Of a DNA stretch of 64,000 nucleotides, positions 1 to 44,987 are shown one piece after another. The first letter of the stretch is position 1. Each line of letters starts with the position of its first letter. Both the position numbers and the translations under genes were made by a program. The notes below the pieces were generated by a model, which was given only the letters and a program-made list of their open reading frames with translations, was not told the DNA's origin and made no database searches. The stretch spans positions 17,914,472 to 17,978,471 of the forward strand of contig NC_088871.1 in NCBI RefSeq assembly GCF_032884065.1. The letters are read 5' to 3'. This DNA is from Artemia franciscana (Eukaryota > Arthropoda > Branchiopoda > Anostraca > Artemiidae).

Positions 1-30
1 AAAAGCAACAAATTTGAATTAGATACATAT

Positions 31-480
31 TATGATAGTTTATGGAGATAATTACTTTGCACAATTTCCTAGGGCAACTTCAATGTTTCATTTTGAAACA
101 ATCACCAGCAAAAATAAACAAAAGTAAAAACTGTAACAGCACTTAAATTATTCTTTTTTATTTTTCATGCCGAGGGTGTAGAAACTTGTTGTATGCTATT
201 CTTGTGGGGGTCTGTGTTCGGTGGTTGATTGGTTGACTCTTTTTCTCTCTCAGATGTTGCTTTTTTAAAGTCGTGCAAAAGTTTAAACTAAACTGGATGA
301 ATAAGTAAAATCTTTATAAAAGTTGAGCCCTCCAAATTGACAGAAAAGTCTCCTAGACTTTCGAAATCCTCGAAATCTTTCGAGGGGGAGGGCGACATCT
401 CTGGGAGACAGAAATATAGTTAAAACAAACAAACAATAGGCGAAATATATGGAAATTACGATATATTATAGGAAAAGGGT
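31..480. other. No feature recognised
   Basis: AT-rich; a short purine/pyrimidine palindrome-like run (TTTCGAAATCCTCGAAATC) near 359 is all that stands out. Confidence 0.5.
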
Positions 481-555
481 AGGAAATTATAAGGCTTCTT
501 GTGTGGTGGGGGTGGCCGGATCGAAAGCCCTCCCTGAAGCTATTTGCTTGAAGTA

Positions 556-690
556 TTGCCGTCTAACTGCTGAATAATAAGGCAAGTCAACAAACTCCGA
601 ATCAATTTCTTTCAAGAAATCACGGAACTGACGATGGTTGAGTGCACGAGATCTAATGAAATTAACCACAGAAACAACAGGTTTACTGAG
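556..690 (-). pseudogene. hAT transposase fragment (GTF2IRD2/EPM2AIP1-like)
   Basis: The minus frame reads VVNFIRSRALNHRQFRDFLK, then EIDSEFVDLPYYSAVR, matching the VNFIR-LNHRQF-YYSEVRWLSRG block of hAT-derived transposases. After YYSAVR the similarity stops; RQYFKQIASGRAFDP and a stop follow at 487. Only about 45 of some 600 residues remain, with no catalytic triad, so it is a dead fragment. The join after AVR could be an old deletion. Confidence 0.6.
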
Positions 691-1359
691 TCAGCAGCTC
701 TTTATCGCAACTCTCAAGCTTAAAATGTTCATAATTTATCACTCTTTAAATGGTTAAGGTTAAGACCGTTATAATTCTAGTTTGTTAAAATAATGTACAA
801 GCAGAGAGAACTTGATGTGTGTCTTTTGTTCAATTTTATATCTCCTTATCACCTAGTTAAGAAATTGCTTGGGCGTAAAGTCCGAAGGCAAGACCCCTTC
901 TCGAAATGCCTTGGGAGGGACTCAGTCCCCAAGAAACTTTGGGGTTTCCCCTGAATATTCTTAGATACCTAAAAATAAACATTATTTTGGGACCATCCCC
1001 CCCCCTTGAAGAAATTGAATCTCTGTGCCTAACGAAACTGACATTTTTCCTACACCCAACTTTTTCCAGTTATGATCTAATATCGATTGCCCCAAGTAAT
1101 ATTAAAAAAAAATAAATACATTATTCTGTAAGTTGTTAAGGTCCCTATCAAACAAGTGTTTTTTACCAATTTAGAAGTCAAATTTCTTATAATAACACCT
1201 TTGCTATTAAAAGAAGTGAATAAGTTCCCCTTTCTGTTCCTATGACAAAGACCCAAAGTGCTAAGTTATCTTCTTGATTTCAAATAAAAGGCTCATTTTC
1301 TAATCATTCTCTTAAGTATCCCTAATATGTCAAATTTCGCGCCTCTCTCTCTCTTCCAA

Positions 1360-1411
1360 CCAATCACAATCGAGGAGTAAAAAAGCCTGCGGCAGTTTTG
1401 AGAATATATAT
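1360..1411 (+). promoter_or_regulatory. Candidate promoter of the CCHamide gene
   Basis: A CCAAT box at 1360-1364 precedes a TATA-like run (AATATATATC) at 1403-1412. The spacing from the TATA run to the ATG at 1473 leaves room for a 5' leader of about 35-40 nt. The spacing and order fit a polymerase II promoter, but no initiator is clear. Confidence 0.35.
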
Positions 1412-1472
1412 CTTGTCAAGAATTAAGAAATGATTCCACTAATACAGGGTAATCTGCAGAGATTACACCATA

Positions 1473-1563
1473 ATGCCTCGAACTTTTTTAATATTCATCT
1501 TGGCTGTAGTTATAGGAACATTTAACGGGATTAGCTGTCAAAGGGATGCTAAAAGGTTTGCAG
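1473..1563 (+). CDS. CCHa1: CCHamide exon 1: signal peptide and first KR site
   Basis: The ATG at 1473 opens MPRTFLIFILAVVIGTFNG, a typical secretory signal, followed by SCQRDAKRFA. The donor is GCAG|GTAATAG and leaves one base (phase 1), which completes an Ala codon with exon 2. This ATG is the only one that gives a signal peptide, and it lies about 60 bp downstream of a TATA-like run. Confidence 0.82.
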
Positions 1564-4500
1564 GTAATAGCTCACGTTTTTCTTTTCCTAAATAGCTTTA
1601 GAAATAGGAAATATTTTCACAGTCCAACCGAACTCAATATCACAATCCCAAGATTCTTTGTATAATTTATCTGCTTTAATAAGAAGTAAAGAACACGGTA
1701 CTAAACTTTACAGGAGTGGCCGTTCTAGGCCTAGGGGGGGGGGCAGCAGCCCTACCCAGTATTTTCCAACATCTTACATTAATTTCTTTTTATTTTATAT
1801 TTTTACACTTCTATGGTTTTCCTTGCCCTCCCACAGATTATGAGGCCTAGAACCGCTACTGCTTTGCAGTCCCTACCGGTGTTGCTGATCTCCGTTTCGT
1901 GGCCGTTCAGCCAAGAATTTAAACGGAGGGTTGAGTGCCAGTCATCCTGTACTTTTTGCACACCCTTCCTGTTTATCTTTCCTGCATTTCTCCAGGTACC
2001 TATTTATTGCTGGGTCGATTCTGGCTGTGTTGGCAGAGTCACGCCAATCTGTATATGCTATAATATGTTTACAATAAATCTGTCACAGGGATGTTAAATG
2101 ATTGTAAGCAATAGTATACTTTTTATTTTCGCTAATATAACTTTTAAAATAGCTATTTTTTCAACATTGTTATGTAGGACTCAAGGACAGAACCCAGTGT
2201 CCCAAACAATCAATTAACAAACCCTATGCACGTATGTTTTGACGCGAAAATCTGGACTAACTCTCTTTTCTCCTTTTATAAGCGAGAAATAAAGGGAGAA
2301 GCCTTTATGAAATTTATTTCTAAAGGAATGTGTTTAGGATTTTTTTGACTGTTTTTAGCAGCCAGTTGTTTATCAAAAGCTCCAATTGAAATTTGTTTTC
2401 TATAAGTGAAAAGAGGAGAAGTCATGCATTATGGGAAATAAGATACTTCGAATTATCTTGTAAACCAAGGAAGGTATGGGGAAATGGATTGGATTAGTTG
2501 ATCGATTGGACTGAGGTTAAAGAACTCTAAAGTGATAGTCTGTACCAAGCTTGTATGCTGTAATAATTAAGTTTTTTGAATTACTGCAACTGGGCTATTC
2601 CAATTGTCAAAACGGTGAAATTTCCTTAGCTACGCTGCATTGTAAATATATTTCAAAGATGATAAACAGCTCAAGTTGCCTAACAAAACGTGACCTTCCT
2701 GGGACAGTGCCAAGTCTGACAAGTCTCTTCGTAATAAACACTGGCTTGAATAATATTAGAACACGGGCATAGGCACATAAAAATAAAACTTAGTCAGGCG
2801 GAGAGTTATCTCCTCTAGGGTAAAAGAAATTTTGATTTCCGAAAAATGGCTATCACAAACCCACACGAGCCAAATTCACTCTTCATCGTCAATAAACCCA
2901 GCAAAAAATGTAAAAAATTATTATGGTAGACAAATATAATATGACTGGTCAGGAAAAGAATCAATATATCAACAAGTTATAAAACTATTAAAATTCGCAT
3001 AATTTTAATGGAATAAACCAAACAAAAATACAAGACAGAATTTAGTAAAGAGAAAATGACTACAAGAAGACAGTTAAAAATTTTCAAGATAAGATTAAAC
3101 AATGGTGAGATAAAAATGGAGTGTGATGCACTTATTTAACAAATCAACTATATACAGAAAAAAGTTCTTCTATATCTGTCCGTGGAAAATTTTATTGTGT
3201 TAGAAAAAATTGGGTCGAAGGGAATGGAAGAGGATCAGATCTGTTGAAAAGGAGTCACGAAGTTTCGAATTCTACATAGCTAACAGATTTTTCTGAGACT
3301 TCCCTGGGTATGAAATATCTTAAAATTGTTGTGTCGAGTGGGGTTGAGTTTCAGCAATTGACATATAAATTCCTTACCTCCTTCGCTGCGAATATGAAGA
3401 TTTTCACTCTCAGGACTTCTAACTAATACTGAGCTCCGATCTGGGTTAATGTTACTTAGATTCCAAAGCAATGGTCGTATGGTACTTATAACAAAGCTTC
3501 GGACTTGTTTAGTCAAGCATACCCTCTCGGACTCCTAGTTCTCCATGGTATTATACAAAAAGATTGAACTAGTTTGCTTTGATATTTTTTTAAGTGTCAA
3601 TGATAATCAAGGATTCTGTCATTTTTCAGCTATGTGCGCTCGGTATGGTCACTCGTGTCTGGGAGCACATGGCAAACGAAGCGGACCGGGGTCAGCTTTG
3701 CCTTATTCTAGCAGTATAGGCTCAACAAGTCCAAACCACGCCAGCCCCCATCAAATCGATGGGTCAAAAGGTGAGATTGTCCGATTTCTTTGAGCAGTTC
3801 TTTTTGCTGAGGCCCAGAGCCATTTCATGACCACAGGAATCAGTTTTTCAACTGTAAGATAATCGCCAATATTACAAGGGCATTTGAAAATAGAAAAAGT
3901 AGAAAATGTCTAGAGAGAATTCCTATTAAATAGGTCTAAAAGCGGATTTTGGTCACTAAAAAAAGAAATAGACAGTATTGCGTTTGAACGCAAATTCAAA
4001 ATAAGCAAGAATAGGCTCTTAAACCTATTCGGGTTTATTCTCTAAAAATAATACCCCAAGTAAACACAAAAAAACGGGGTTTAATGAAGATTAGTGGTGG
4101 ATTTTATTTCATGTAACCAGCGCTGTAATCGCTTAAATTAAACATTTTTATGGTTGAAAGTAAGCCACGGCCCATAGTAACAAAAAGTTTAAGACGTACT
4201 TTGGAAAAAAAACTGATTAGTGAGTAAAAATTTATGTTTGTAGCTGATTCAGGAATCATCTAATCTTAATAGCAATGTAATTGGGGGAGAATTACTGGAT
4301 TTTGAACACAAGCTTGAAAACCATAGAAATGGTGTTAGATTGAAATAAGAAGTGCACCGTTGGAATCCCTCCGGTCGAAAACCCTATAGAGTAGAATTGC
4401 AGACCCTAGTAAATAAGCAAGTATGACGGCACTAGACTCTTAAGGTCCAAACCAGCCGTGCTGATCTCCGTTTTATGGCCCTTCAGCCAGGAAGTCTAAT

Positions 4501-6030
4501 GGGGGCCTGGGTGGCAGCTATCGTTTGATTTCACACACCCTTCTTGCTTACCTCCCTCAGATTTCTCCAGGTACCCATTTAGAGCTGGGTTGACTCTGAT
4601 TGAGCTTACAGAGTCACGTCACTGACCCCCGTCCCAGACAAATAAACAACCGTGAAGGAATCGAACCCGTGCCCCTCGGACAGAGGATCCCCAACCCAGC
4701 GCGTCAACCATCTTGAACAGCAAGGAAAATTGCTCTTCGCATGAAAAGCACTGATTTCTCTTTTTTGTTCTCTGCCACTATTGGGAGACTGGAAAATCAT
4801 GGAGAGCCGTCTAAGGGCTCATTTGAAAGCTAATTTTTATATCTACGTTATTTTATAAATTCTCTTTGTGTCCTTTCGGTTGTTTGAAAGGCTGGAAAGC
4901 CAGAAAGCATGAAAATTGAACCATCATAATCCCCATGGTCAAAACCCTAAACCTGACCTTTACAACCCCTCACATTTTAGAACTCTATCCCTTCCACCTT
5001 AATAAATTTCATATATCTACAGCTGACTAACGGAACTAGGCTAGTTCTAGTGGTTAATATAGTCTATTGGTATCAATTAACAAAAATTTAAGGAGGGGAT
5101 AAAGTGCGTTTTTGATATTTAGGGGAGGAGAGCAAATTTGTGGCTTCTTTTCATTTTTTTTATTAAATGAAAATACTAAAAAGGAGCGTTTTCAATGAAA
5201 ACGATCCAAAAAAGTATTTTCAAAATCTAGGTGTGACGAAAAATCAGGAGGAGGGGGTACTGACACCTCTCCTCTTAATTAATGTCTCTGGAACTACATG
5301 GCAACTACGAAATCGTAGAGATCTTTAAAGGCTCAAATTCAAGGTTCTTGATCAAATCAGTTTCCTATTGCAAATTTATAGTTGAGAAGAATCTGAAAAA
5401 GGTGCATCGAGAGGTGATAAAACTCATCTTATTCTATTGGAATGGAATCCCAAATCCTCTTTGTGTCTTCCAGTTTCCCCCTTATTGCAGGGACAATTTA
5501 TTTTCAAAATGTGTTCTTTTGCAGATAGACACTTCGTTTCTTTCTTAACTAGAAACAGAGATATTACTACTCCCTATAATTCATTTGAGTTACAATCATT
5601 CTATCTTTCCCTCTCTCTCTCTGTGCACTCAAACACTGTCTCTCCCACTCTCTTTCTTTCTTTCCTCCCCTCTCTTTGTCATCCATCTTTAGTCGGATCA
5701 AACGAGTTGGCTCTTACTTTGTGAGCTACTGAAACGACACTTGAAGGAACAAAGATAAAAACAAATCCGGATTTGCTTCATTTATTTACCTAATTATTTT
5801 TTTTTACTGAACTCCTTTTAACTGACCTATGATTCGTATTCCTTACGGTGTGACCTATCTAATGTTTTCTATTCGCTCAAAATTTCAAATTTTATTTATT
5901 TTTGTGCTTTATTTTACTTTTAACTGAAAATTATCCCTTTATTTCAGGATGTCATGCGGGAAAACAAAGGTGTTCAAAACTACTAGAACTGCTGTCAATC
6001 AGAGGGAAATCGCCTTATGAGGTAAATTAA
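1473..6030 (+). CDS. CCHa1: CCHamide-type neuropeptide precursor (three exons)
   Basis: Exons 1473-1563, 3630-3770 and 5948-6030 join with matching phases (1, 1) into a 104-residue secreted precursor. Residues 1-22 form a hydrophobic signal peptide. KR at 27-28 releases FAAMCARYGHSCLGAHG, which is followed by KR at 46-47; the glycine would give a C-terminal amide on His44. Cys33 and Cys40 have the six-residue spacing of CCHamides, and GHSC-x-GAHG-KR matches the CCHamide-1 type. Known family: peptide hormones of gut endocrine cells and neurons acting on bombesin-receptor-like GPCRs. Odd points: Leu41 replaces the Trp seen in Drosophila CCHamide-1, and the mature peptide has an N-terminal FAAM extension. 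The tail (48-104) has no second amidated peptide. The 3' end is the least certain part: exon 3 can end at the TAA at 6028 or splice at 6021. The paralogue assignment is inferred from the GAHG ending. Confidence 0.85.
1686..2047 (-). mobile_element. tRNA-derived SINE, copy 1 (head lost, carries a MITE)
   Basis: It shares the body of the copies at 4421-4715 and 13478-13793: TGCTGATCTCCGTTT, then CACACCCTTCCTGTTTA, then TTTCTCCAGGTACC, then CAGAGTCACGCC. The tRNA-like head is missing on the right. The tail end is split by the 148-bp element at 1714-1861. It lies in CCHamide intron 1, in antisense. Confidence 0.75.
1714..1861. mobile_element. hAT-type MITE with 8-bp target duplication
   Basis: The 148-bp element starts GAGTGGCCGTTCTAGGCC; its right end, read in reverse complement, is CAGTAGCGGTTCTAGGCC. 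It is flanked by CTTTACAG (1706-1713) and CTTTGCAG (1862-1869), an 8-bp duplication with one change, as hAT elements make. The interior is non-coding (G-run near the left end, T-rich middle). Confidence 0.75.
3630..3770 (+). CDS. CCHa1: CCHamide exon 2: mature peptide
   Basis: The acceptor TTTTTCAG|CT and donor AAAAG|GTGAGA are both good consensus sites. The exon encodes the two-cysteine ring (CARYGHSC), the GAHG-KR amidation and cleavage site, and a Ser/Gly/Pro-rich linker of 30 residues. It ends in phase 1. Confidence 0.85.
4421..4715 (-). mobile_element. tRNA-derived SINE, copy 2
   Basis: In minus orientation a tRNA-like head (box B GGGTTCGATTCC at about 4655-4666) is followed by the common body and tail. 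The body includes CAACCCAGCTCTAAATGGG and CTGAAGGGCC. It lies in CCHamide intron 2. The head has decayed more than in copy 3. Confidence 0.75.
5948..6030 (+). CDS. CCHa1: CCHamide exon 3: precursor C-terminus (end uncertain)
   Basis: The acceptor ATTTCAG| follows a T-rich tract, and the frame set by exon 2 stays open: GCHAGKQRCSKLLELLSIRG, then KSPYE. From there two ends are possible. Read-through gives VN and a TAA at 6028-6030, with an ATTAAA hexamer at 6059-6064. Alternatively the GAG|GTAAAT donor at 6021/6022 splices to a distant phase-0 exon such as 26742-26820. Confidence 0.6.
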
Positions 6031-6299: not shown

Positions 6300-6620
6300 G
6301 AGTAGGGCTGACAACCCCCATCCCTTCAACCCCAAAAGCCTTATTATATGATACTTGAACTATTTTGAATAAAATGGCTATCTCAATATTTCTATTAGAT
6401 GAATTTCAAGAAAATACAACGTGTGAGGGGGGAGGTAGCTACCCTCTGATCGTTGCCAATTCAAAGTTTTGGTTACCAATTCAATCGATGCTTGAGGAAA
6501 TGATGGGCTTGGGAGGGGGGCATAGTGACCCTCTAATCACTTTCGACTATTACAACGGGCACAAGCCCTCTCAATTTCCAATTGAATGAGCCCTTTTTGA
6601 TGTTTCTACAGTAACTCCTT
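6300..6620 (+). repeat. Dominant repeat family, body fragment
   Basis: AAAATGGCTATCTCAATATT, CCTCTAATCACTTTCGACTA and AATTGAATGAGCCCTTTTTG match the body of the copy at 23874-25512. It is less than 400 bp after CCHamide exon 3. Confidence 0.5.
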
Positions 6621-16653: not shown

Positions 16654-18760
16654 CTAGACGAAGAATATCTTAAATAGGAGAACTAGAAATGCAGCCAGGA
16701 ACATTACAGAAAACGCTCTAAGGCTTAAAGAAGGGTTTCCATGAAGTAGCTTCCATGATTGAACATAATAGCTCACCGCAGCACCCATCCACCTGAGACC
16801 AACAAAGCTCCTCCTCCGTACGCTCCTCTTCCATCCTAATCTATTTAAAGCCTCCCCCTTTACACACTCCCAGGAAGTTCCCATTTCTTCAAAATCTTTC
16901 TTTATGACATCCTTCCACATCAACCGCGGACGACCTGCTTTCCGTTTAGTCGTAGTCGGTACGCCAAAAAGGACAATCTTTGGCAATCTATCATCCTTCA
17001 TCCGTAGAACGGGCCCTACCAATCTCAACCTTTCTCTCATTACAGCCTTAGAAAGTGGGATTGAATCACTCTTTTCATACAGTCTACTGTTTGAAGTACG
17101 GTCAGTTAGCCGAATACCTAGAACGATCCGTAGGCAATTTCTCTGGAAAACATCTAGCAAATCTTCATTTGCTTTTCGAAGCGCCCATGCTTCAGAGCTA
17201 TAGTTGACAACTGTCTACACTGTAGTTTCCAGTATTCTAATCTTGGTTTGCACACTTATCTTCCTATTCTTCCGAACTTTTTTTAACTCTGAAAAAATAC
17301 TCTGAGCCTTGGCTATTCTACTTTTAACATCTTCACAGCTCCCACCGTCTTTACTAACAATACTACCAAGGTAAGTGAGGTTGTCCACCTGATCATTCTT
17401 TTCGTTACTAAGCGTCACCTTTTCATCTTCACTTATTCCTTCCTAGCCTTAGCGACTTAGTCTTCTTAACATTAATTTTCGGACCTATTCTAGGACCCTG
17501 AACGCGCAAAACCTCTAAAAGTTCATTCATTTTGCTCTCACTTCCATCTAGGATGGTTAAATCGTCACCATAATCTAAGTCCAGTAGAGTTTTCCTCACA
17601 ATTTGATTCTGTGGTCTATTGCCTTTCCTGTGCTTCTTAAGACGAAATCCCTCAAAATGATCCATACAAAGGGTGATAAAACACAACCTTGCTTATTATC
17701 GCCTGTTGCTTAGTCTCGTATATAGCACTAATCACTTTAATGTATTTGTCTGGTATAACATATAAGGTCAAGACCTTTGCTAAGGTTCTTCTATCAACAG
17801 AATCGAACACTTGATCATAATTTATAAAGCTGAGGACCAAACGTAACTCAGGCACTTATCAATTATTAACCGAAGAGTGATAATTTGGTCGACAAATTCT
17901 CTGCCTTTTCTAAAACCGCACTGTTCTTCTCTTAAAACTGTGTCTACAGTATTTCTCAGTCTAAAAAGTATCATATTACTAAGTAATTTGCTACCTACAG
18001 AGACCAGACTAATGTCTCGATAATTACGATACTCTTTCATATCACTTCTCTCATACAGTGGTTTGATTAAGTTTTCCTAAAGTCGCTAGGTACTTCCCTT
18101 TTTTTAAAATCATATTCATAATCTTCAGTAACTTATTTCTAACCTCAGAGCCGCCATATTTAAGAAACTCAATTACCACACTATCAGAACCTAGAGCCTT
18201 ATTTTTTTTTAATCCTTTTAATAATGTCCCTAATTCTTACTCACAAAACAAATCTTCCTTCAAATCCAAGGTATCACCAACTTTTTATATTCCTCTATAT
18301 ATTTTCCTGCAACTCTGTCACGGTTTAGCACATTCTCAAAATGTTCTACCCATCTCTCTTTAACCCTTTCCTTATCACTAATTGTAGCCCTATTCCTACC
18401 TTTAACTGGGACAAGTCCAGATTGACTACTCCCGCTCAGTTTATTAACATGCCAGTACAATGTTTTACTATTATGCCGTCTAGCTGCATCTTCCAGATCC
18501 TCGGCAATTTTATCCATGGCCTCCACTTCGCATCTCCGTGATTCTTATTTTAAAGCTTTCTTCACTTAATTTAAATTCTGTTTTCATATGAAATATCGCT
18601 CAGATATTTCTTGTACAAGCCCCTTCGCCTCACAATTAAACATAAAGCTTTTTCACTAATATTCCTAGCTGCGGTTCTAACTTTCTTTCCCGAGATACCA
18701 TCAGCAACTTCACAAATTGTTTTCCTAAAGTTGTTCCATCTATCTTCCACTAATACTTAC
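16654..18760 (-). mobile_element. RTE-like LINE, 5'-truncated reverse transcriptase
   Basis: In minus orientation, pieces of one reverse transcriptase lie in order: KKVRTAARNISEKALCLI (about 18690), AARRHNSKTLYWHVNKLSG, EEQCGFRKGREFVDQIITLR (about 17900), NYDQVFDSVDRRTL (motif A), LDYGDDLTIL (motif C, YGDD for the usual YADD), INVKKTKSLRL, LTYLGSIVSKDGG. The C-terminal stretch has RMKDDRLPK and KAGRPRLMWKDVIKKDFEEM. The pieces fall in several frames with stops, so it is a pseudogene. There is no endonuclease domain; the copy stops near 18760. GFRKGR-VDQI and YLGS-DGG are typical of the RTE clade. Confidence 0.82.
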
Positions 18761-19049: not shown

Positions 19050-19960
19050 TAGAATGAATATTTCGGCCCTATGTCCAAGGGCCGTCCTCGGCAATACAAA
19101 TAAGAAAAAACAACTTACGAGAGGATTAAATCAATAAAACTAAAATGAACAGTTTTTCAAAACAGTCCCAGCATCCTTACCTGAACGAAGTTCAACCAGG
19201 ACTGAAAAATAAATTGTTATGAAACGAGGCAATTCAATGAAATGAAAGAAAATGATTTAAAAACAGGTTTTTAATGCCAGCCTAGCTTTTTTCGCTGCTG
19301 ATCTTATATGTCTATTTGTGACAGGTTCTGTGTTAATATCTATTGGTTTTTTAAAATATTTTGCAATGTCATTTTTAATTAAATTTGTGTATAAAGCATT
19401 CAGTGAATATTCTCCTAAATCCCTATTTAAGGAAATATTATCATTAATCTTAAGTCTGATTTCAATTGCTTCTCGAACTACTTGCTTTATGCCTAGATCA
19501 TTGCTAATAATGGCGGATTCTTCAAAAAGTATTTTGTGCCTAGAATTTACGAAAACATGGCTACTTAAAGCAGATTCAAAAGAAACAGAAGTAATATTAT
19601 TAGAATTCAGAGCTTTGGTGATATCATCTTTATGTTGTTGTAGGCGTTTCTCGAAATTCTGGTGGGTTCTCCCTACATAGAATTTGCCACAGTCGCATGG
19701 CATTTGATAGATACCTCATTGGCGAGTGACTGGAGTCTTATCTTTACCAGAATTTAGGAGATTTACGATTTTCAAATTATTGGTAAATACAACATACAGA
19801 TTATTTTATGTGCATACTTTTTTAAGATTTCTAGTGATTTTTGGGGTATATGGGAGGTAAATTATGTTTTGGGGCTTATCGGGATTTTCACATGGTAAAT
19901 TATCGTTGATTTTATGGGAGGACCTAAATATTTTCTTCTTTACTTCACCTGATCTTTAGT
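19050..19960 (-). mobile_element. Penelope-like element, 3' part with GIY-YIG endonuclease
   Basis: A 148-codon minus frame (19703-19257) starts MPCDCGKFYVGRTHQNFEKR and continues QQHKDDITKALNS. C-x-CG-x-FYVGRT followed by R-x6-HK is the endonuclease signature of Penelope-like retroelements, which cut target DNA for reverse transcription. Further upstream the same strand shows IIYLPYTPKITRNLKKV, another family block. The 3' flank has the inverted pair GGCCC...GGGCC then GAAATATTC (19068-19100), common at ends of these elements. Most of the reverse transcriptase is missing, and the copy is broken at a few points. Confidence 0.75.
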
Positions 19961-20466: not shown

Positions 20467-22930
20467 TTAAAATAAGAGCTCTGAGTCACAAAGTCCTTCT
20501 AAATATCAAAATTCATTAAGATCCGATCACCCACTCGTAAGTTATAAATACCTAATTTTTTCTAATTTTTCCTCTCCCTTTTGCCCCCCAGATGGTCGAA
20601 TCTGGGAAAACGACTTTATCAAGTCAAATTGTGCAGCTCCCTGACACGCCTACCAATTTTCATCGCCCTAGCACGTCCAGAAGCACCAAACTCGCCAAAT
20701 CACTGAACCCCTCCCCCCGACTCCCCCAAAGAGAGCGAATCCAGTACGATTCTGTCAATCACGTATCAAGGACATTTGTTTATTCTATCCACCAAGCTTC
20801 ATCCCGATTCCTACACTCCAAGTGTTTTTCCAAGATTTCCCCCTCCAAATCCCCACAATGTCAAAAGATCTGGTCGGGATTTGAAATAAGAGCTCTGAGA
20901 CATGAATTCCTTCTAAAAATCAAATTTCATTACGATCCGATCATCTATTCGTAAGATATAAATACTCCAATTTTCATATTTTCAAAGAATTCCGGTTCCC
21001 CCCTCCAACTCCCCCGAATATCACAGAATCTGGTCGGAATTTGAAATTAGAACTTCAAAGCACAAGATCCTTCTAAATATCAAATTTCATTAAGATCTGG
21101 TCACCCTTTCGTAAGTTACAAATACCTCTATTTTCAAAATTACCCCCCCCCCCCATTCCACCAAAGAGAGCAGATCCGGTCCAGTTATGTCAGTCACGTA
21201 TCTTAGACAGGTTTCTATTCTTCCCATCTAGTTTTATCCTGATCTTACCGCTTTAAGTATTTTCTAAGATTTCCGGTCCCCCCCAACTGCCCCCCCCCAA
21301 TTACGCATGATCCGGTTGAGATTTAAAATAAGATATCGGAGTTACGAGGTCCTTCTAAATATGAAGTTTCATGAAGATCCGATCACTCCTTCGTAAGTTA
21401 AAAATACGTCATTTTTCTTATTTTTCAGAATTAACCCCCCCCCCCCCGCAATTGACCAGATCCGTTCCAATTATGTAAATCACGTATGCAAGACTTCTGC
21501 TTATTTTTCCAACCAAGTTTCATCCCAATCCCTCCAATCTAAGCGTTTCCCATCATTTTAGGTCTCCCCACCCCAAACTTCCCCCAATGTCACCAGATCC
21601 GGTCAGGATTTAAAATAAGAGCTTTGAGACACGATATCCTTCTAAAAATCAAATTTCATGGAGATTCAATCACCCGTTCGTAAGTTAAAAATACCTCATT
21701 TTTTCTAATTTTTCAGAATTAACCCCCCCCCCCAACTACCCCAAAGAGAGCGGATCCGTTCTGGTTATGTCAATCATGTATCTAGGACTCGTGTTTTTTT
21801 TTCCACCAAGTTTCATCCCGATCCCTCCACTCGTTGGAGGTGTTTTCCAATTTTTAGTTTCTCCCTCCCAACTCCCCCCCCCCCCCAATGTCACCAGATC
21901 CGGTCGGGTTTAAAATAAGAGCTCTGAGCCACGATATCCTTCTAAATATCAAATCTCATTGAGATCCGATCACCCGTTCGTAAGTTAAAAATACCTCTTT
22001 TTTTTCAGAAATACCCCCCCCCCCCCAACTACCCAAAAGAGAGCGGATCCGTTCCGTTTATGTCAATCATCTATCTAGGGCTTGTGTTTATTTCCCCCCC
22101 CATGTTTCATCCCGATCCCTCCACTCTAAGTGTTTTCCAAGTTTTAGGTTTCCCCCTCCCAACTCCCCGCCCCCATCACCAGATCCGGTCGGGATTTAAA
22201 ATAAGAGCTCTAAGACACGATATCCTTCTAAACATCAAATTTCATTAAGATCCGATCACCCGTTCGTAAGTTGAAAATACCTCATTTTTCTAATTTTTAA
22301 GAATCACTCCCCCCCCCCCAACTACCCCAAAGAGAGCAAATCAGTTTCGATTATGTCAATCATGTATCTGGGACTTGCGCTTATTTTTCCCATCAAGTTT
22401 CATCCCGATCCCTCTACTCTAAGCGTTGTCCAAGATTTTAGGTTTCCCCCCTCCAACTCCACCCAATGTCATCAGACCCAGTCGGGATTTAAAATAAGAG
22501 CTCTGAGACACAATATCATTCCAAACATCAAATTTCATTAAGATCCAATCACCCGCTCATAAGTTAAAAATACTTCATTTTTTCTATTTTTTCCGAATTA
22601 ACCGGCCCCTACTCCCCCCCCCAGATGGTCAAATCGGGAAAACAACTATTTCTAATTTAATCTGGTCCGGTCCCTGATACACTTGCCAAATTTCATCGTC
22701 CTAGCTTACCTGGAAGTGCCTAAAGTAGCAAAACCGGGACTTTAGGTTTTCCCCCTCCAACTCCCTCCAATGTCATCAAATCCGGTTGGGATTTAAAATA
22801 AGAGCTCTGAGACACAATATCATTCCAAACATCAAATTTCATCAAGATCCAATCACCTGCTGATAAGTTAAAAATACTTCATTTTTTCTATTTTTTGCGA
22901 ATTAACCGGGCCCCCACTCCCCCCCAGATG
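20467..22930 (+). repeat. Tandem array, about 295-bp unit, nine copies
   Basis: The marker TTTAAAATAAGAGCTCTGAG recurs near 20467, 20879, 21042, 21310, 21607, 21908, 22193, 22487 and 22790. The last five spacings are 285-303 bp. Each unit also has AAATTTCATTAAGATCCGAT, a C-run of variable length, and AAGTTTCATCCCGATCCCT. The first units are truncated or rearranged; the last two are nearly identical, which suggests recent growth at the right side. Confidence 0.85.
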
Positions 22931-23040
22931 GTCAAATCGGGAAAACGACTATTTCTAATTTAATCTGGTCCGGTCCCTGATACGCTTGCCAAATTTCATC
23001 GTCCTAGCTTACCTGGAAGTGCCTAAAGTAGCAAAACCGG

Positions 23041-23086
23041 GACCGACAGACCGACAGACAGACCGACAGACCGACATACCGACAGA
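23041..23086 (+). repeat. (CCGACAGA)n microsatellite
   Basis: About six copies of GACCGACA-like units between the minisatellite core and the terminal hairpin of the element at 20338-23130. Confidence 0.9.
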
Positions 23087-32120: not shown

Positions 32121-32849
32121 ATGCCAGGACAATTACCTAAACAAGATGAAGCAGGAGAAGAAGAAGCAGGAAGAGCATCGCCCTCCAGTGATCGAAGCTC
32201 CCCCATAGACAACACTGAAAAAATGCAAATGCTCAGAGCAATGAAAGATCAACTCATAGCTAATCGAACGACAATCAGTGAAAAGGATATACAACTAGAT
32301 GAAGCAAAACAACTTGTGGCTCTTGCTAGACAAGAAACTGAAGATATGCGTGTGATTAATGAAAAACTGGTCAATCAAAATAAGCAACTTCAAAATAGAG
32401 TAATTGTTACTCGTGAGATGTCACAGCTTGGCAAACAGATGGCTCAACTGAAAGATTTGGAGGTTAAATCCTTAAAAGTTGAAATACACGGACTGATGGA
32501 AAAAATAAGACTTTTAAATAACAAAGTAGAAAATAAAACTTGTGATGTTCTTGTTGAGAGTGACGCCCATCAAAATCTTCAAATGCAATTGAAGGTTATT
32601 GAAGAAGAATCAAAGAAACAGGCTGCTTTTATCACAAAGCTTGAACAGGACTGCTTATACCCCCTAACTGCAGGAAATCCCCTTTCTGAGAAGCTTTTTG
32701 TGATGAATGGCCTGTTTCTAGAATTGGAAAAAGATGACAATGAGATGTCGTTTCTTGAATTGGTTGGTGAAAGAATTACGTCACTATTAGCGCCAGAAAA
32801 AGAGGAATCCTTAACTGAGAATAATTTCTCATTACATGCATGTTTCAAG
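32121..32849 (+). CDS. Coiled-coil gene, first coding exon
   Basis: It opens with MPGQLPKQDEAGEEEAGRAS and ends TGTTTCAAG|GTGAGT in phase 0 after 243 codons. A splice acceptor-like AG lies immediately before the ATG, so either the true start is here with an untranslated exon upstream, or the methionine is internal. Confidence 0.75.
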
Positions 32850-35800
32850 GTGAGTTTTTCCTAATGATAGAATTTGATAGCTCTCCTGGCTTATAATTAA
32901 ATTGAATGCAAGTCACGACCAATGTGCTCTTCTGAAATATGTGACTGTATATTATAGTTTTAACTTATAATCCATAAAGCCCAAAAGTTTGCTACTGGGT
33001 TTTGATTTGGTGGTAACTTTCAATTCAATTATTTTTATCCTCTTTTAATTACAATTATAAGTTAAAGAAGCGTGATGTAATGTCGAACAGTGCAAACCCC
33101 TTTCCTTTACTTTTCCAGATATTTAAAAAGTGGGTTCTTTTTAAAGAAGTGGACCTAATAATTGGGTTTTGTAAGTTTTTGTATGTCTAGCAGCACACAG
33201 GTTTCAGCGCTTTCGGCATTTTATAAAGACAAAACCTGTTGCAACCTTTTTTGCGATTTTTCTCTGTACAGATGCCACTCAACTTAACAAACAGGCTAAA
33301 GTAAAGTTTTTAATTGTTCTGCTTGCACTTAGAAATATTTATCAACGCAGTGAAAACAAAACTAAAATAATCTGCTATGAAACACAGCCTTCACATCGTA
33401 TCATATATATGCAAATCCTTATATCATTAACACAGCTAAATATTCAGGAACAGGATGATTAGAGAAGTTCCAATAAAGTAATGATTAGTATTCAGCTCTC
33501 TCAAATGGGCAGCAAAAAAATCTTATCTGTATTTATTTTCAGGTTATTCAGGAAACTAAAAACAATCTTGGGTAGCAAAAAATCTATTGGGGGGATGTCT
33601 ACCTAACACCTGCCCGCGACATAAGATCACATCATTGCTTCCCTCCTAATTGGATACATTTCTAATTATATTAATTTTCTGTAATCAAAGAATCTACGTT
33701 TTTCATATTTTCTCATTTCGGGGAGGAATTTTGAGCACCTTTTGCCTGAACCTGCGCCTTCTATCCCTTAACCGCATTATAGTTCACTCTCTTTAGTGTG
33801 TTTTTTTTTGGTGATGATGAAATAACAAGGACAAAAATAACGATAAAATCGGACATATAGAAGTTACATGAGCTATAGTAAAATAAGAAAAAGTTAGAGG
33901 GGCCTCCTGTCCCTATATAGTCGGCTGTTGTCAAAGTTCCATATATCATTATATTGCAAACAAACTTTGCATTTAATCCAATGCATTTTCTCTTCCTTAA
34001 AGACAATCCATGAAGAAGAAGCGTCTCCTGTGGTCTTAAATGCAAGAAATGCCCTCTTGTTCATCAAAGACCTCCTAATCAACAGAAGAAAATTAGAAAG
34101 TGAAGTGCAGTCCCTTAAAGAAGTCAACAACCAACTGAAGCTAACAATGCTAGAACAAGAAAGGGAATTGTCAAGTATCAACATTGAGTTAACGTCTGCA
34201 TGGGGTAAGTTATTCGCGGGCTCGTTGTTCTCTAGCAAAAAGCCCGGTTCACGGCCTGCAGGTGTAAGATGGTGACTAAAATACACTAATAACTATTTCT
34301 AAAAATCAAAGTTAAAAACAGGCTGCATGCAAAAAATTATAATGGGATGAGACGGAACAAAGTGGGAAAACGAGGAAATAGGTAAATTTTATGGAAAATT
34401 AAAAGAAATATCGTAATATATTGATTTTTTTTGGAGGGGGGGGGCTGTATGCCACATTATTGCGTCCAGAATCTATTTCATTACGAATCTATTTCACATC
34501 ACATGCATACGACTACATTAAAAGATATCTACTATAACCGTGTTGCAATTCCAAATATGATTCCATTTGAAACCTTTTGCGCATCTCATCTGCGACGGGA
34601 AGAAAAGATTAGCCTTACTGAAAATTCCTTGAGGATATAAATGATTTGGACTACATCACCATCTATTTGAAAAGTAGAGTTAAAAAAATATGCTAAAACT
34701 ATACAGGCACCCGCATAGAAGAGACCGTTCCACAGTAAAGGCCACTTTTTACTTTGGATTTTGCAAGTTGTTATGAGAAAAACAAACATTATCTTGAAAT
34801 CTAAAATGGCCACGAAACAAGAAAACATCACAGGATTTTGTAAACCCAAGGACCAGGTTCAAACCAAAGAGAATTCTGTTAGGTTTCATATTAGGGGTGA
34901 ATTCTTCACTGGCCTAGTTTTGTCAAAGAAAAACATAAAGTGGTTAATTAAAATCAAAGGTGCCGAAAGTTTGTAGATAAATCTTATAAACGCTGAGAGC
35001 GGGGGGGGGGAGTCAAAATTGATTCCGTGCCTTCTATGGGATCGTTGTATTGCAATAAAATAATAGAGCTTCTTACTGACCTTAAGAAATACCTTTCCCA
35101 GAATATATCTTTAATTACAAGCGATGCTTGAAACAGCTGACTGTGGCAGTTCACGAGGGGCTACGTTACATTTTGCCTACGTGAGATTTATGCTCCACCT
35201 CTTCAGCCAAAGCCGACTGAATCGACTGGCTTAGTACACATTCCTCTATATCCAATGCATCAAAACGTAACAATAAGAATTTATACGGAGAGGGGGGGTC
35301 AGGACGTTTTCCAGGAGAGGCTAAGGTTTAAAAAATAATTGTTTTTGCTAAACTTTTTTTTAACAACAACAAATTTCCAAACAGACAAAAACAAGAAACC
35401 TCTTGTTCTCCACTCCCCCAGCGGGAGCAAGGAGAGTTCAAGGTCCCTTATCCTATATTATATCAATATTTTGTTCTTGAGCAAACCCAATGAAAGACGA
35501 GTCATGAATTCGCTGTCATACAGCTAGGCCTTTGATAGAGGATACCCATCTTTGTTGGCAATTTGCATCATCCTCTACGGATTAAATAGTTTCTTCAACG
35601 TATACCAGTGGCGTCATTTTTTTGGGGGGGGTCAGTTGCCCCCCCCCCATAATTTGGAGAAACAAACATAAATCATTAATTAACTTTATAACTGTTGGTC
35701 GTTCAAATTCGCTATTTACTTTGACCAGAAAATTATTTTATTAATCCCAGATCTTTTAATGTAAAAACGCGAACAACAGGGGCCCATTGCGCTTCCTAAT

Positions 35801-39425: not shown

Positions 39426-42400
39426 ATGTGCGTGTGTGTTTGTACTTTTCACAACTCAAGAAAATATTTACGGGCTTTATTAAATTGACTATTGTAAATA
39501 CAACCAAAACTGAAATCAATTAATGAATCATTCTAATTTGCTAAAATCGTTATAAGAAAATTAAAAGACGAAGAACTAATATCTAAAAAGCTAGCTAGTG
39601 AGGTTGAAGCAAAGGATGACAAAAAAAGCGATAAATGGTCACAGAGAAAGAGAGAGAGAGAGATAAAATGAGAGGAGATTGAGAAACAGGATGTAAAGAA
39701 ATGGAATTTGAAAAACAGAAGAGGACGCTTACAAACAAGGTAATTTAAATCAGATACTGCATAAAAAAGACCAGATTCTACTTTTAACGGAATATTGAAA
39801 AAGAAAAAGAACAATCTTAGGCATTCTTCGAAAACAAACTAAGATGGTCATTTACTATGGTGTTTCCATTTCCCTATAATTCATGGAAAGCAAGTTGAAA
39901 ATAAATGTTCATTACAGCTTACACTTTCCCATTCGACTTAATTTAGTTAAACAGGAATCATATTGAGGATATCATAAAGAAATTTTTGAACAGGAAATCT
40001 GTAAGAATCATTGTTGCAATTGAATAAAAAAAAACTAGTATTTTCAGCTGAAAGTAAGGGGTAACATTAATACCCAAAACGAACAGAAACTATTCCATAT
40101 ATGAAGGAATTGCTCTAATCCTGAATACATTATTTAGCACTTTTAAAAAAGCTTCTTATTCTAACTAAATGGCCATTGTATTTCAGGAGTGTTTCTCAAG
40201 AAATTGGGACAAATAGTCAACTTTAACGCAAAGAGCAAGGTATTGAGAAGGGGAGTAACCCCCTTCATATACGGATTAATTTCTGTTCGTTTTGAGTTTT
40301 GATGTTGCTTCCTACTTTCAGCTGAAAAACTTGTTTTTTTAATTTAATTTATCATCGTTTTTCAAATAATGCGGGGAAATCAGACCCCTGTTTCATGAGA
40401 GGTTTACTCTCCTCACAGGAAACTCCTTGAGATTTCCTCCCACGTAAAATACTCCCTCCTGTAAAATTCCATCTGGACAATTCCATTCTCGATGAAAAAT
40501 ATTATACGCAAAATGGGTAAATTTAGTAACTTGCGGCCCTATCCCCAGGGGCTATGGGGGCCATATTATTACCAGAGGCACGGTTATTGAACCCCTCAAC
40601 TATGTTGAGAAAAATAACCATCTCAAAAATTTGACTAAACGACTTTGAAGAAAAAGGGGTGCTAGAGGGGAATTAGCTACTATCCAGTCTTTTTGGTCAC
40701 TTAAAAAAAGGCACGAGAACTTTTGATTTCCGATCAAACAAGCCCTCTCTTGATCTTCTAGAATTATTGGTTCGATATGATCATCCCTGGGGAAATAATA
40801 CAAAAAAAACAAAAAAACAAATAAACACGCATCCTTGATATTTTTTTCGCAAAATTCCACTTTTTTGTATACAGGAGCTTCTAATCTCTTCGGTATGGCT
40901 CTCTAATATACCGAATCTGGTGATGATATTTTCATTCAGATCACTTGATGTTTTTGAGGGTGTTTCTCCCATTTTTCAAATCTAGCAAATTTTCTCAGAC
41001 TCGTAGCTTCTGATGGCTAACATAAGACTTTGAATTTTAAATATTTTGAATCAGCATCAAATTTCGATTTTTTAAAATGTATCTGTTGTTATCAAGACTG
41101 TGTTTCTTATACTTTCGGTTACAACTGAGCCTCATTGCTCTTTACTTACAGTTTGTTACCACAAACTGTTTGACAACAGATTGCTATCTATTTAACCTTG
41201 AAAAGAAAATCCACTTTTCGGGATTGCAAAGAGAGTAGACGAATCCATTTCAAACCAAAAAAAATAAAAAAAAAACTCAGGAGGTGAACTTTTTAGGGGC
41301 AAGGAGCACAGCTTGATATTAGAATAGTGGGAATTTGATTTAACATTTTAATACCATTATGACCCAGCCGTCTATTAATTGTGCCAGATCATCCAGTTCA
41401 AGTAAAAAGAAAACAAAAGGATAATTTTTATATTGTTAATTTTTATTGAGATACATAAACCATAGCGAAATTATTACCTGTACAATCTAATTATTCCAAC
41501 AATGACACCAGCTATTTAGTAGCATAGCGGTACTAGGAAGACGAAAATCTTGTCGAATATGAATGTGGTATAGAGGTGATGTATTTTACCCACTTATCAC
41601 TAGTTTATTGCTCTATGAGCAAGTGCTGTGGCAAAAATCCCCTTTAAACAGGATCTTCCACTGTATCCCTTCCTCTTTGTATAATTAGAAATACTGTTAC
41701 AAGAGGGGGACATCTATTGTAGGGGCCATTTAACAAGAACTTATTTAATTAATGAATATTTTTAGGCATGATCAACAAAGTTAAGAATCAGCATGGTATA
41801 CTTTACAATGCTCGCGAGGCACACCGACATGACCTTCGAGAAAAACGAAAACTTCTCACTAAGCTTAAAGAGGAACTTGAGTTTTCTCATAAAAAGCTTC
41901 TTTCATTAAGAATTATGAACAAAGAATCTGAAGCCGAATTTCAAAGTATGCGAGATGAAAGAGAAAGCAGGATTTTAGAAGATAATGCTGTTAAGGTCGT
42001 TGAAGCGGTAAAAATTGTCGAAGAGATGGTTCCCGAAAAGCCAGAAGAATTAGATGGCACAGGTACGGTTTCTAAATTCAAACAAGGGAATTTTTTCGTT
42101 TTGAGCAACCTTCTTTTCTGCCCAACATTTTTTTTGAGGAGAGGAAGGTGATAAGAAAATGACTGGAAAATACTACGAAAAATATAAACAGAAACTGGAA
42201 AAAAATAGAGAACTATTCAAGGATTCGCAAAATGTATTTTTTTGGTGTTACAACGGGATCCTGGTCATAGGTGCCTGGTGGTAAATGTCAAACACGAAAT
42301 TCCAGGGCTTTACGAAATTAAGTAGATAGTGGCAAGCTGAGAAACAATTAATGTTGGGGATATGTCTCGTTAAAAAAACTATATTATAACAACTGACTTG

Positions 42401-44987
42401 ATTTTACGGCAGTAAAAATTGAACCATATAGAAACACATATGTCAAATTACTTTTAAGCAAACCCTCTATTTAAGGTGTGGCAAAATTTTGAAAAGCAAG
42501 TGCTTTCCAATTTATTTTATCTAGTAAAAGAGTACAGTTTTTCTAATTCATTGAAGATGAATAGCCAGTTTTAAACATAACGCCTGTTTTACCTATAATC
42601 TATCATTTCTTTTATTGACTCTACGGCTACTACTACAACTAACAAACACACTGCAGCGCCAAGCCACCTGAGTCCACTGCAGTTATGAACGCTCCTCCTC
42701 CATTCCAATCTATTCAAAGCCTCCTTCTTTACACCCCCAAGAAGTTCCTATTTCCCTTAAATCTTTCCTTTCGATCTCCTCCCACGCCATTCGGGGACGA
42801 CCTGCTTTTTGTTCGGCCCTCGATCGTTGACTGACAAAGAAGATTTTTGGCAATCTGTCATCATTCCTCCGCAAAGCGTGTCCTAGCCTCAACCTTTCTC
42901 ATTGTAGCCCCAGGAAGCGGGACTGAGCCACATTTTGATACATCTTACAGTTTGAAATACGGTCAGTCAGAAGGATGCCCAAAATAATCTGTAGACAATT
43001 TTTCTGGAAAACATACAAAAATCATCCTCCGTCTTTCGGAGCACCCAAGCTTCAGAGCGATACTTGACCATTGTCATCACTGCAGATTCCAATGCTTTAA
43101 TCTTTGTTTCCATAGTTATATTCCTATTTTTCCAAACTTTCTTCAACTGTGAAAAAAACACGCTGGGCCTTGGCTGTTTTACCTTTAACGTCTTCACTGC
43201 ATCCACCGTCTTTACTAATAATACTATATAGGTAAGTGACACTGTCCACTCGATCGATCTTCTCGTTACCCAGCGCCTTTTCATCTTCACTTATTCCTAG
43301 CCTTAGCGACTTCTTAACATTAATTTTCAAACCTATTCCTGCACCCTGAACTCTCAAAACCTCCAACAAATTCTGTCATTTTGCTAACATTTTCATCTAG
43401 GATCCTCAAATCATCAGCATAATCTAAGTCTTGGAGAGTTTTACTTGCCCATTTGATTCTGTGCTGCCCATAGTCTTTGCTATACTCCTTTAGAAAGAGT
43501 CCATCAAAATGATCCATATAAATAGGAACTTACTCAGTAAGTAGAAGACAGCAAAACCGTTGCCACATTCTTATTGTTACCCGCATAAGTATATGTAATG
43601 AAACATAATTTATTCTTAGGAGAAAGAAAGTTTCAGCAGAAGGAGGGCTGTTTCCTAGTCGAAAACAACTTACTTAACAAAGCCTTCCAAGAAATCATAC
43701 TAAGTATATTGAAATAAGTTATCATTTTCAGCCGATACGAATGCACTAACTGTAAAGTTCCTCCCCTCCTTTCTTAGCTGTTCTCAGTCTATATGAATTT
43801 TCAGTTTACTAATGCATTTTCTGAGGCATCATAGAAATACATCCCAGTTTTTAGGTTCCTTAATACATCTTTCCAACTTATTAAACCACCTTTTACTTGT
43901 CTAACTTTGAATCCATCCTCAAAGTCGAGATAATTACGTTAGTCAAGAGAATATTTTTTATTTCTTTAGAATTTAAGACAAAAGCGTTTTGGTGGCTTTC
44001 AATTTTTGACCAGTTGTACTAAGCCCTTATCAAAATGCACTTTAGCAAAATCTTAATCATTAAAGACATACCAAAAAAGTTCAAGACATTTTATCAGGGG
44101 CATTAGTTGGGATGGAGGGTAAGTCGGCCCTCCTTCCTCTAGACTTTGAAATATACCTTTTTTTCGCTTCAAAATGCCCACATTTTGACAAACACATTTG
44201 TTTGGATCTTCATTAAAAGAAAAAACCTCGTCCCCTCTTCATCATTTTCGTAAATTGGCACAACTGCGTGTTAACAGTCGAATGCTCGGCGCATTCACAA
44301 CTGTCTTCGTTTTTTGATATAAATCAACAATTATTTTATAGACTCAATCGATTTGGCTCAATCCCCTCCCCCTCCTCTTCTTCCTTCTATTCCTATCCTC
44401 CGTTTCTTCCTATTTTTTCGCCTTTTTTTTATTATCTTAGTTTTTCCCCTTTTCAAATCCATTTTAATGCATATTCTCTTTGATTCACCTATATTTGTCT
44501 CTTATAACTTCTAAAGTTTGTTTTTCATCTATTATAGTTGTAATGATTTTATCAATTTAAGACCCACTTCAATGACTGATACCACTACAACCCTGATTAT
44601 CAGAACTATTTCACAGTGGTTGGAATAATTATATTAGCAAATACTTTTAAATTTTCAGATACACCCATATTCATAGATAGCCCATCGTCGGAAGAATCCC
44701 GCATTGCTTCGCCGACAGAATCGGAGGCATTACCATCCAATGACGAGATTGTTGACACTGAAAGCATAAAGATTTTAGACAAAGAGGAGCGACTGAAACT
44801 TCTTGAGGACCAATGCAAGTTCCTCTACGCAAGGGTGCTTAGAAGCACGCATCGATCTATTTTGCTCGCAGAAAGGCTCTCAGCACTGCATGACCAATAT
44901 GGGAGCAATGAAGAGTCAGCAACATCGAAAGCTTCAACACCTGCACCAGAAACACCGAAAGAGCGAACTCCTCCCAAAAGCGAATAA
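32121..44987 (+). CDS. Coiled-coil protein of unknown function (four exons)
   Basis: Exons 32121-32849, 34003-34204, 41766-42062 and 44659-44987 join in phases 0, 1, 1 to give 518 residues; I do not recognise the family. Residues 1-30 are acidic and Ser-rich. From about 32 to 180 the sequence is heptad-rich coiled coil (KQLQNRVIVTREMSQLGKQM region). A less charged block follows (about 180-240, GNPLSEKLFVMNGLFLELEK). Exon 2 returns to coiled coil (LESEVQSLKEVNNQLKLTML), and exon 3 is strongly charged helix. Exon 4 has a Ser/Glu/Pro stretch, a conserved-looking helix (EERLKLLEDQCKFLYARVL), and a Pro/Thr/Ser tail. There is no signal peptide, membrane segment or enzyme motif, so a scaffold, cytoskeletal or Golgi role is possible but inferred. 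ATG 32121 sits directly after an acceptor-like TATTTTATAG, so a 5' exon probably exists. A convergent Moira gene lies downstream. Confidence 0.75.
34003..34204 (+). CDS. Coiled-coil gene, second exon
   Basis: The acceptor TCTTCCTTAAAG| and donor TGGG|GTAAGT enclose 67 codons plus one base (phase 1). The translation begins TIHEEEASPVVLNARNALLF and continues as coiled coil. The frame follows exactly from the previous exon. Confidence 0.75.
35000..36950. other. Intron of the coiled-coil gene; MITE-like end at 35608
   Basis: CAGTGGCGTCATTTTTTTGG with a G-run then C-run (35608-35650) looks like a hAT-MITE end. A possible opposite end, CTGGCCCTACGCCCCTG, lies at 38228, too far away to be called a pair. 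The rest holds no feature I can support. Confidence 0.4.
36960..37211 (+). pseudogene. Possible hAT transposase fragment (ZMYM1-like)
   Basis: An 83-codon frame: TEIESRLEENSLEVLNNLSV, then FVCEYYKLDYEHCMSELQCF. The pattern R-L-E-E-N-x-x-x-L...YYKLD-x-x-x-x-x-EL is seen in ZMYM1-type hAT proteins before the C-terminal dimer domain. No catalytic residues or inverted repeats are seen nearby. Confidence 0.3.
39338..39440. repeat. (AT)n then (GT)n microsatellite
   Basis: About 73 bp of AT followed by an imperfect GT run. The tyrosine/isoleucine-rich reading frames across it are artefacts of the repeat. Confidence 0.97.
40031..41169 (+). mobile_element. Dominant hairpin-ended repeat family, second copy
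   Basis: It has the same order as the copy at 23874-25512: left fold-back (inverted arms at about 40040-40130 and 40225-40335), body, then a terminal stem-loop at 41148-41169 (arms ACAGTTTGT and ACAAACTGT, loop TACC). It lies in intron 3 of the coiled-coil gene. Confidence 0.7.
41766..42062 (+). CDS. Coiled-coil gene, third exon
   Basis: The acceptor ATTTTTAG| completes a Gly codon (G+GC) and the donor ACAG|GTACGG leaves one base. It encodes a charged helix (REKRKLLTKLKEELEFSHKK) with almost no helix breakers until PEKPEE at its end. The intron before it is 7.6 kb and holds a copy of the dominant hairpin-ended repeat. Confidence 0.75.
42650..43540 (-). mobile_element. RTE-like LINE, short 3' fragment
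   Basis: Related to 16654-18760 but beginning just before motif C: LQDLDYADDLRILDENVSKM (about 43440), GIGLKINVKKSLRLG, VTYLYSIISKDGG, then KAGRPRMAWEEIERKDLREI near 42770. It keeps YADD. Frameshifts break it. It lies in intron 3 of the coiled-coil gene, in antisense. Confidence 0.75.
44659..44987 (+). CDS. Coiled-coil gene, last coding exon
   Basis: The acceptor AAATTTTCAG| completes an Asp codon. It encodes a Ser/Glu-rich segment, then a helix around KLLEDQCKFLYARVLRSTHR, then a Pro/Thr/Lys tail ending PPKSE and TAA. A strong donor (AAT|GTGAGT) follows only three bases after the stop codon begins, so the 3' UTR may itself be spliced. Confidence 0.72.

Follow-up and report, generated by a model that had tools for sequence, protein, structure and literature searches.

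The 64,000-nucleotide stretch of Artemia franciscana DNA analysed here (contig NC_088871.1, positions 17,914,472 to 17,978,471; called the window below, GC content 35.4%) carries near its start a three-exon gene that is almost certainly the CCHamide gene of this species, with processing, receptor and role as proposed below. It adds an ordinary member to a known family, and its peptide belongs to the decapod type that has Leu after the second Cys. A search of the literature on CCHamide together with Artemia, Daphnia or Branchiopoda, with most subscription journals outside its reach, found no earlier report of a CCHamide from Artemia. The gene gives the study of CCHamide evolution a branchiopod sequence while leaving knowledge of the family unchanged, and it supplies a ligand and its likely receptor for joint tests in a laboratory crustacean.

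Structure of the gene and its precursor

Exons at 1473-1563 (coding part), 3630-3770 and 5948-6030 of the plus strand join in phase to encode a precursor of 104 residues. Both introns have GT..AG ends, with matching phases. Translation gives the order signal peptide, QRDA, Lys-Arg, FAAMCARYGHSCLGAH, amidation Gly, Lys-Arg and tail. Exon 1 encodes the predicted signal peptide MPRTFLIFILAVVIGTFNGISC (residues 1-22, basic and hydrophobic, with a putative cleavage site), QRDA, Lys-Arg at 1551-1556 and the residues FA of the peptide, and ends in the phase-1 donor CAG/GTAATA. Exon 2 follows the acceptor TTTTTCAG/CT and encodes the Cys-to-His core CARYGHSCLGAH (codons at 3635-3670), then Gly-Lys-Arg at 3671-3679, which places the amidation Gly and a dibasic cleavage site directly after the His, and then the start of the tail, up to the strong donor AAG/GTGAGA. 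The first two bases of exon 3 complete a Gly codon, and the exon continues with the tail GCHAGKQRCSKLLELLSIRGKSPYEVN to the stop codon TAA at 6028-6030. A single copy of the peptide thus stands close behind the signal peptide, separated from its presumed cleavage site by QRDAKR. The original prediction of three phase-compatible exons yielding a complete precursor holds at every coordinate, and the two Cys residues, GHSC, GAHG and the Lys-Arg sites are all encoded as it described.

The peptide motif and the anatomy of the precursor both back the assignment to CCHamide made in that prediction. The sequence MCARYGHSCLGAH, with its two Cys residues, satisfies the arthropod motif XCXXW/Y/FGXXCXGXH, published with a C-terminal amide as XCXXW/Y/FGXXCXGXHamide (PMC7212414). 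In the six frames of the window the pattern C..[YFW]GH.C.G[AG]HG[KR][KR] appears a single time; 200 random sequences of 64,000 bases each, generated by a first-order Markov model, do not contain it at all. Scored with generic matrices, donors 1 and 2 rank among the best 2.7% and 0.14% of GT dinucleotides in the window. A scan of positions 1-3629, confined to the window, for frames that start with ATG, encode a hydrophobic N-terminus and end in a phase-1 donor over the cut-off returned exon 1 as its sole candidate. A motif scan also found TATATAT at 1405-1411, about 65 bases 5' of the start codon, and AATAAA at 6368-6373, both on the plus strand; as a possible TATA box and a possible polyadenylation signal, these would be compatible with a short transcript.

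The part of the model with the least support is exon 3, which is placed by phase and splice signals only. It may be that exon 3 is wrong or that a fourth exon follows, so that the C-terminus of the precursor would differ with the peptide unchanged. Consistent with this, exon 3 lacks homology support, a donor GAG/GTAAAT at 6019-6027 ranks in the top 1.8% of GTs in the window, and retention of intron 2 would extend exon 2 by the seven codons of GEIVRFL to a stop at 3791-3793. The three-exon model, however, ends in a clean stop and is close in length to Homarus prepro-CCHamide I (116 residues versus 104 here; PMC4696782), which its order and length suggest is the Leu-type precursor, and we regard a different tail as unlikely. 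Errors in exon 3 would leave the mature peptide unaffected, because the peptide does not depend on that exon.

In the scheme we propose, the signal peptide would direct the precursor to the secretory pathway, a prohormone convertase would cut at the Lys-Arg behind GAHG, and a carboxypeptidase would then trim the two basic residues. The exposed Gly would become the C-terminal amide, and a disulfide ring would form between the two Cys residues. The product would be FAAMCARYGHSCLGAH-amide, or a longer form beginning QRDAKRFAAM if the first Lys-Arg stays uncut. It would act as a hormone or transmitter at a G-protein-coupled receptor (GPCR) of the bombesin type, most likely the one described below, and by analogy with other arthropods its role would be gut-brain control of feeding or metabolism.

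Comparison with known CCHamides

The closest published relatives are found among decapods, which have CCHamide paralogs (PMC4888303), although a single transcript is described for Lysmata (PMC7212414). Cherax CCH-2 is GGCLNYGHSCLGAHamide (PMC5141488), the Lysmata peptide is VPKGGCLNYGHSCLGAHamide (PMC7212414) and a Homarus peptide is HRVLKGGCLNYGHSCLGAHamide (PMC4696782). All three share with the predicted Artemia peptide the core CxxYGHSCLGAH-amide, with its YGHSC and the Leu that follows the second Cys, and those of Homarus and Lysmata carry N-terminal extensions as well. In the 12-residue core that runs from first Cys to His, the Artemia peptide matches these Leu-type peptides at 10 positions. 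Portunus has two precursors with the motif XCXXY/FGHSCXGAHamide (PMC8449533), and across published CCHamides the residue after the second Cys is W, F, Y or L.

The mature peptide had been described as unusual, a view that finds little support in these sequences; Leu stood out there because the comparison was with the insect peptide, which has Trp. We also rejected the idea of a distinct Artemia subfamily defined by Leu, since the peptides of Cherax, Lysmata and Homarus share that residue. Among nine aligned peptides, Artemia alone has Ala-Met ahead of the first Cys and Ala-Arg behind it; Met precedes the first Cys in none of the eight others, all published. The decapod Leu-type peptides instead have Gly-Gly before the first Cys, where Artemia has Ala-Met with a dibasic Lys-Arg upstream, and Leu-Asn between the first Cys and the Tyr, where Artemia has Ala-Arg. 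The peptide is therefore slightly unusual, and only in its Ala-Met before the first Cys and in its uncertain N-terminus.

Insect CCHamide-1 (SCLEYGHSCWGAH-amide in Drosophila) has GHSC, an amidated GAH end and one copy near the signal peptide, as predicted for Artemia, but carries Trp in place of Leu and, in Polyneoptera, lies directly behind the signal peptide (PMC7179676), which the Artemia peptide does not. Insect CCHamide-2 (GCQAYGHVCYGGH-amide in Drosophila, with the long form AQQSQAKKGCQAYGHVCYGGH-amide) resembles the possible longer Artemia product in that its natural extended forms keep an uncut dibasic site; it differs in its GGH end and in the V and Y of its core. The trochozoan excitatory peptides (EP, GGNG), described as orthologous, likewise have two Cys residues, an amidated end and one copy after the signal peptide, whereas their core between the Cys residues is described as different.

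Cleavage at the Lys-Arg at 1551-1556 is uncertain. In Carausius CCHamide-2 an N-terminal Lys-Arg is left uncut (PMC7179676), and three natural N-terminal lengths of Drosophila CCHamide-2 have been purified; the authors leave undecided if the two longer ones are processing intermediates (PMC3533232). The extra FAAM at the N-terminus, pointed out originally as odd, thus has counterparts in the extensions known from Homarus, Lysmata, Carausius and Drosophila.

Copy number and a candidate receptor

Protein queries were run against the whole assembly of 1,270,528,402 bases in 6468 contigs. The full precursor gave three matches, which are its own three exons, and its core gave one match, at this locus. 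A query of two decapod peptides and one of two insect peptides each gave one match, again at this locus, with E values of 0.053 and 0.045. These four queries found no second CCHamide gene, the last two working near the limit of the search, and such a gene in Artemia is unlikely. A second copy, which would have spoken against the original prediction had it carried all expression, was thus not found.

A pseudogene or silent copy, with exons intact by chance or only recently dead while another CCHamide gene functions, is very improbable. The genome is large, repeats make up 67% of the published assembly (PMC11492255), and the acceptor sites are not strong; yet no defect is seen in the reading frames, the splice dinucleotides or the processing sites, and the four queries disclosed no other locus that could function in its place.

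A 7tm_1 profile search of the genome gave 145 matches. Loci were ranked by likeness to a motif of the bombesin type for the third transmembrane segment (TM3). The ranking covered 73 loci, made up of 30 plus 40 further stretches, picked mostly for matches that span TM3, and three precursor loci, and about 74 of the 145 matches fell outside it. An intronless GPCR reading frame of 395 residues on contig C19 (minus strand, 1270-2457 of locus L013) took the top score, 71, with the next at 54. Searched against solved structures as 394 residues, without the first Met, this frame had neuromedin-B, gastrin-releasing-peptide (GRP) and BRS-3 receptors as its best eight matches (E 1.3e-47 to 9.1e-41), followed by galanin receptors (E 1.1e-32), among the best 60 of 487 matches. 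Against the whole genome (37 matches), the next-best match by score was 31% identical. By sequence, this GPCR is likely to be the receptor of the peptide encoded in the window.

A second candidate, on contig C18 (query residues 20-87, 45% identity, TM1-2), was ruled out as a bombesin-like receptor: an exon lying 32 kilobases further on, taken as its TM3 exon, best matches cholecystokinin A and NPFF receptors, with the GRP receptor reached only at 1.1e-6. Downstream of the receptor frame on C19 (stretch L087, G000:C19:31540300-31542900), several open frames past its stop codon look similar to its C-terminal tail (RQRRETASLIRKSLAASS) and may be tandem repeats of the tail sequence; one copy is 59% identical.

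A tentative reading, to which we give well below even credence, is that the CCHamide system of Artemia consists of a single gene, of the decapod Leu type, with a single bombesin-like receptor. It would contrast with Homarus and most winged insects, which have two CCHamide peptides and two receptors. If true, the single pair in Artemia would either predate the duplication or be what is left after one pair was lost.

The original prediction held further that Leu and the N-terminal extension could alter receptor selectivity. On this reading the gene is as modelled, and Ala-Met, Leu and the extension would together give the peptide its own receptor selectivity. All eight of the other aligned peptides lack Met before the first Cys, and in Drosophila each of two peptides prefers a different receptor. 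At CG30106, the receptor other than its own, long CCHamide-2 has a half-maximal effective concentration (EC50) of 6.45e-8 M versus 4.86e-9 M for the short form, about 13 times weaker, so an extension can reduce activity at a receptor that is not the cognate one. At CG14593, its own receptor, long CCHamide-2 is nonetheless highly potent (EC50 1.49e-10 M, versus 4.80e-11 M for the short form), and because it stays sub-nanomolar there an extension may be of no consequence for cognate signalling. Leu, moreover, is common to Cherax, Lysmata and Homarus, and the loci examined yielded only one bombesin-like receptor, which gives no hint of another between which the peptide could select. Selectivity peculiar to Artemia is accordingly improbable; of the earlier proposal, some effect on selectivity may stand, while Leu and the extension prove to be mostly ordinary.

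Several observations weigh against identifying the locus as the functional CCHamide gene with the processing and receptor proposed. Acceptors 1 and 2 score only moderately, ranking among the best 7.2% and 8.1% of AG dinucleotides in the window. The precursor has no Pfam-A match at E values up to 10, and against PDB sequences it returned three chance rows of antibody chains, the best with an E of 1; such a result is expected because this is a neuropeptide precursor, yet these searches give no independent support. The extension contains a dibasic site, and the Lysmata and Homarus extensions, as printed, have none. A diverged second gene could escape detection, since the decapod and insect queries, reaching even this locus only at E of about 0.05, are near their limit of sensitivity. 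The bombesin-like placement of the candidate receptor comes from a comparison with solved structures and with the Artemia genome itself.

Other features of the window

Pfam was run on 10 of the 237 open reading frames of at least 60 residues in the window, and GIY-YIG was the sole family above the cut-off among them. This nuclease domain lies at 19260-19715 on the minus strand (E 1.5e-5) and presumably derives from a Penelope-like retroelement. Two further minus-strand frames, at 16657-17214 and 42970-43290, read by eye like what we take to be C-terminal pieces of reverse transcriptases from retrotransposons without long terminal repeats; the former had no Pfam match, and the latter had a weak match to DUF6451, below the cut-off. 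Open frames on the plus strand at 32121-32861, 33898-34272, 41756-42148 and 44580-44984 look coiled-coil-like by eye and matched no Pfam family above the cut-off; they are possibly exons of one large coiled-coil gene. Positions 20839-23043 hold a large minisatellite whose units are about 160 and 293-304 bases long. An Rfam tRNA match of 47.6 bits at 50550-50609 on the minus strand, absent from ARAGORN output, is perhaps a tRNA-derived short interspersed element, and a run of exactly 100 N at 54373-54472 marks a scaffold gap.

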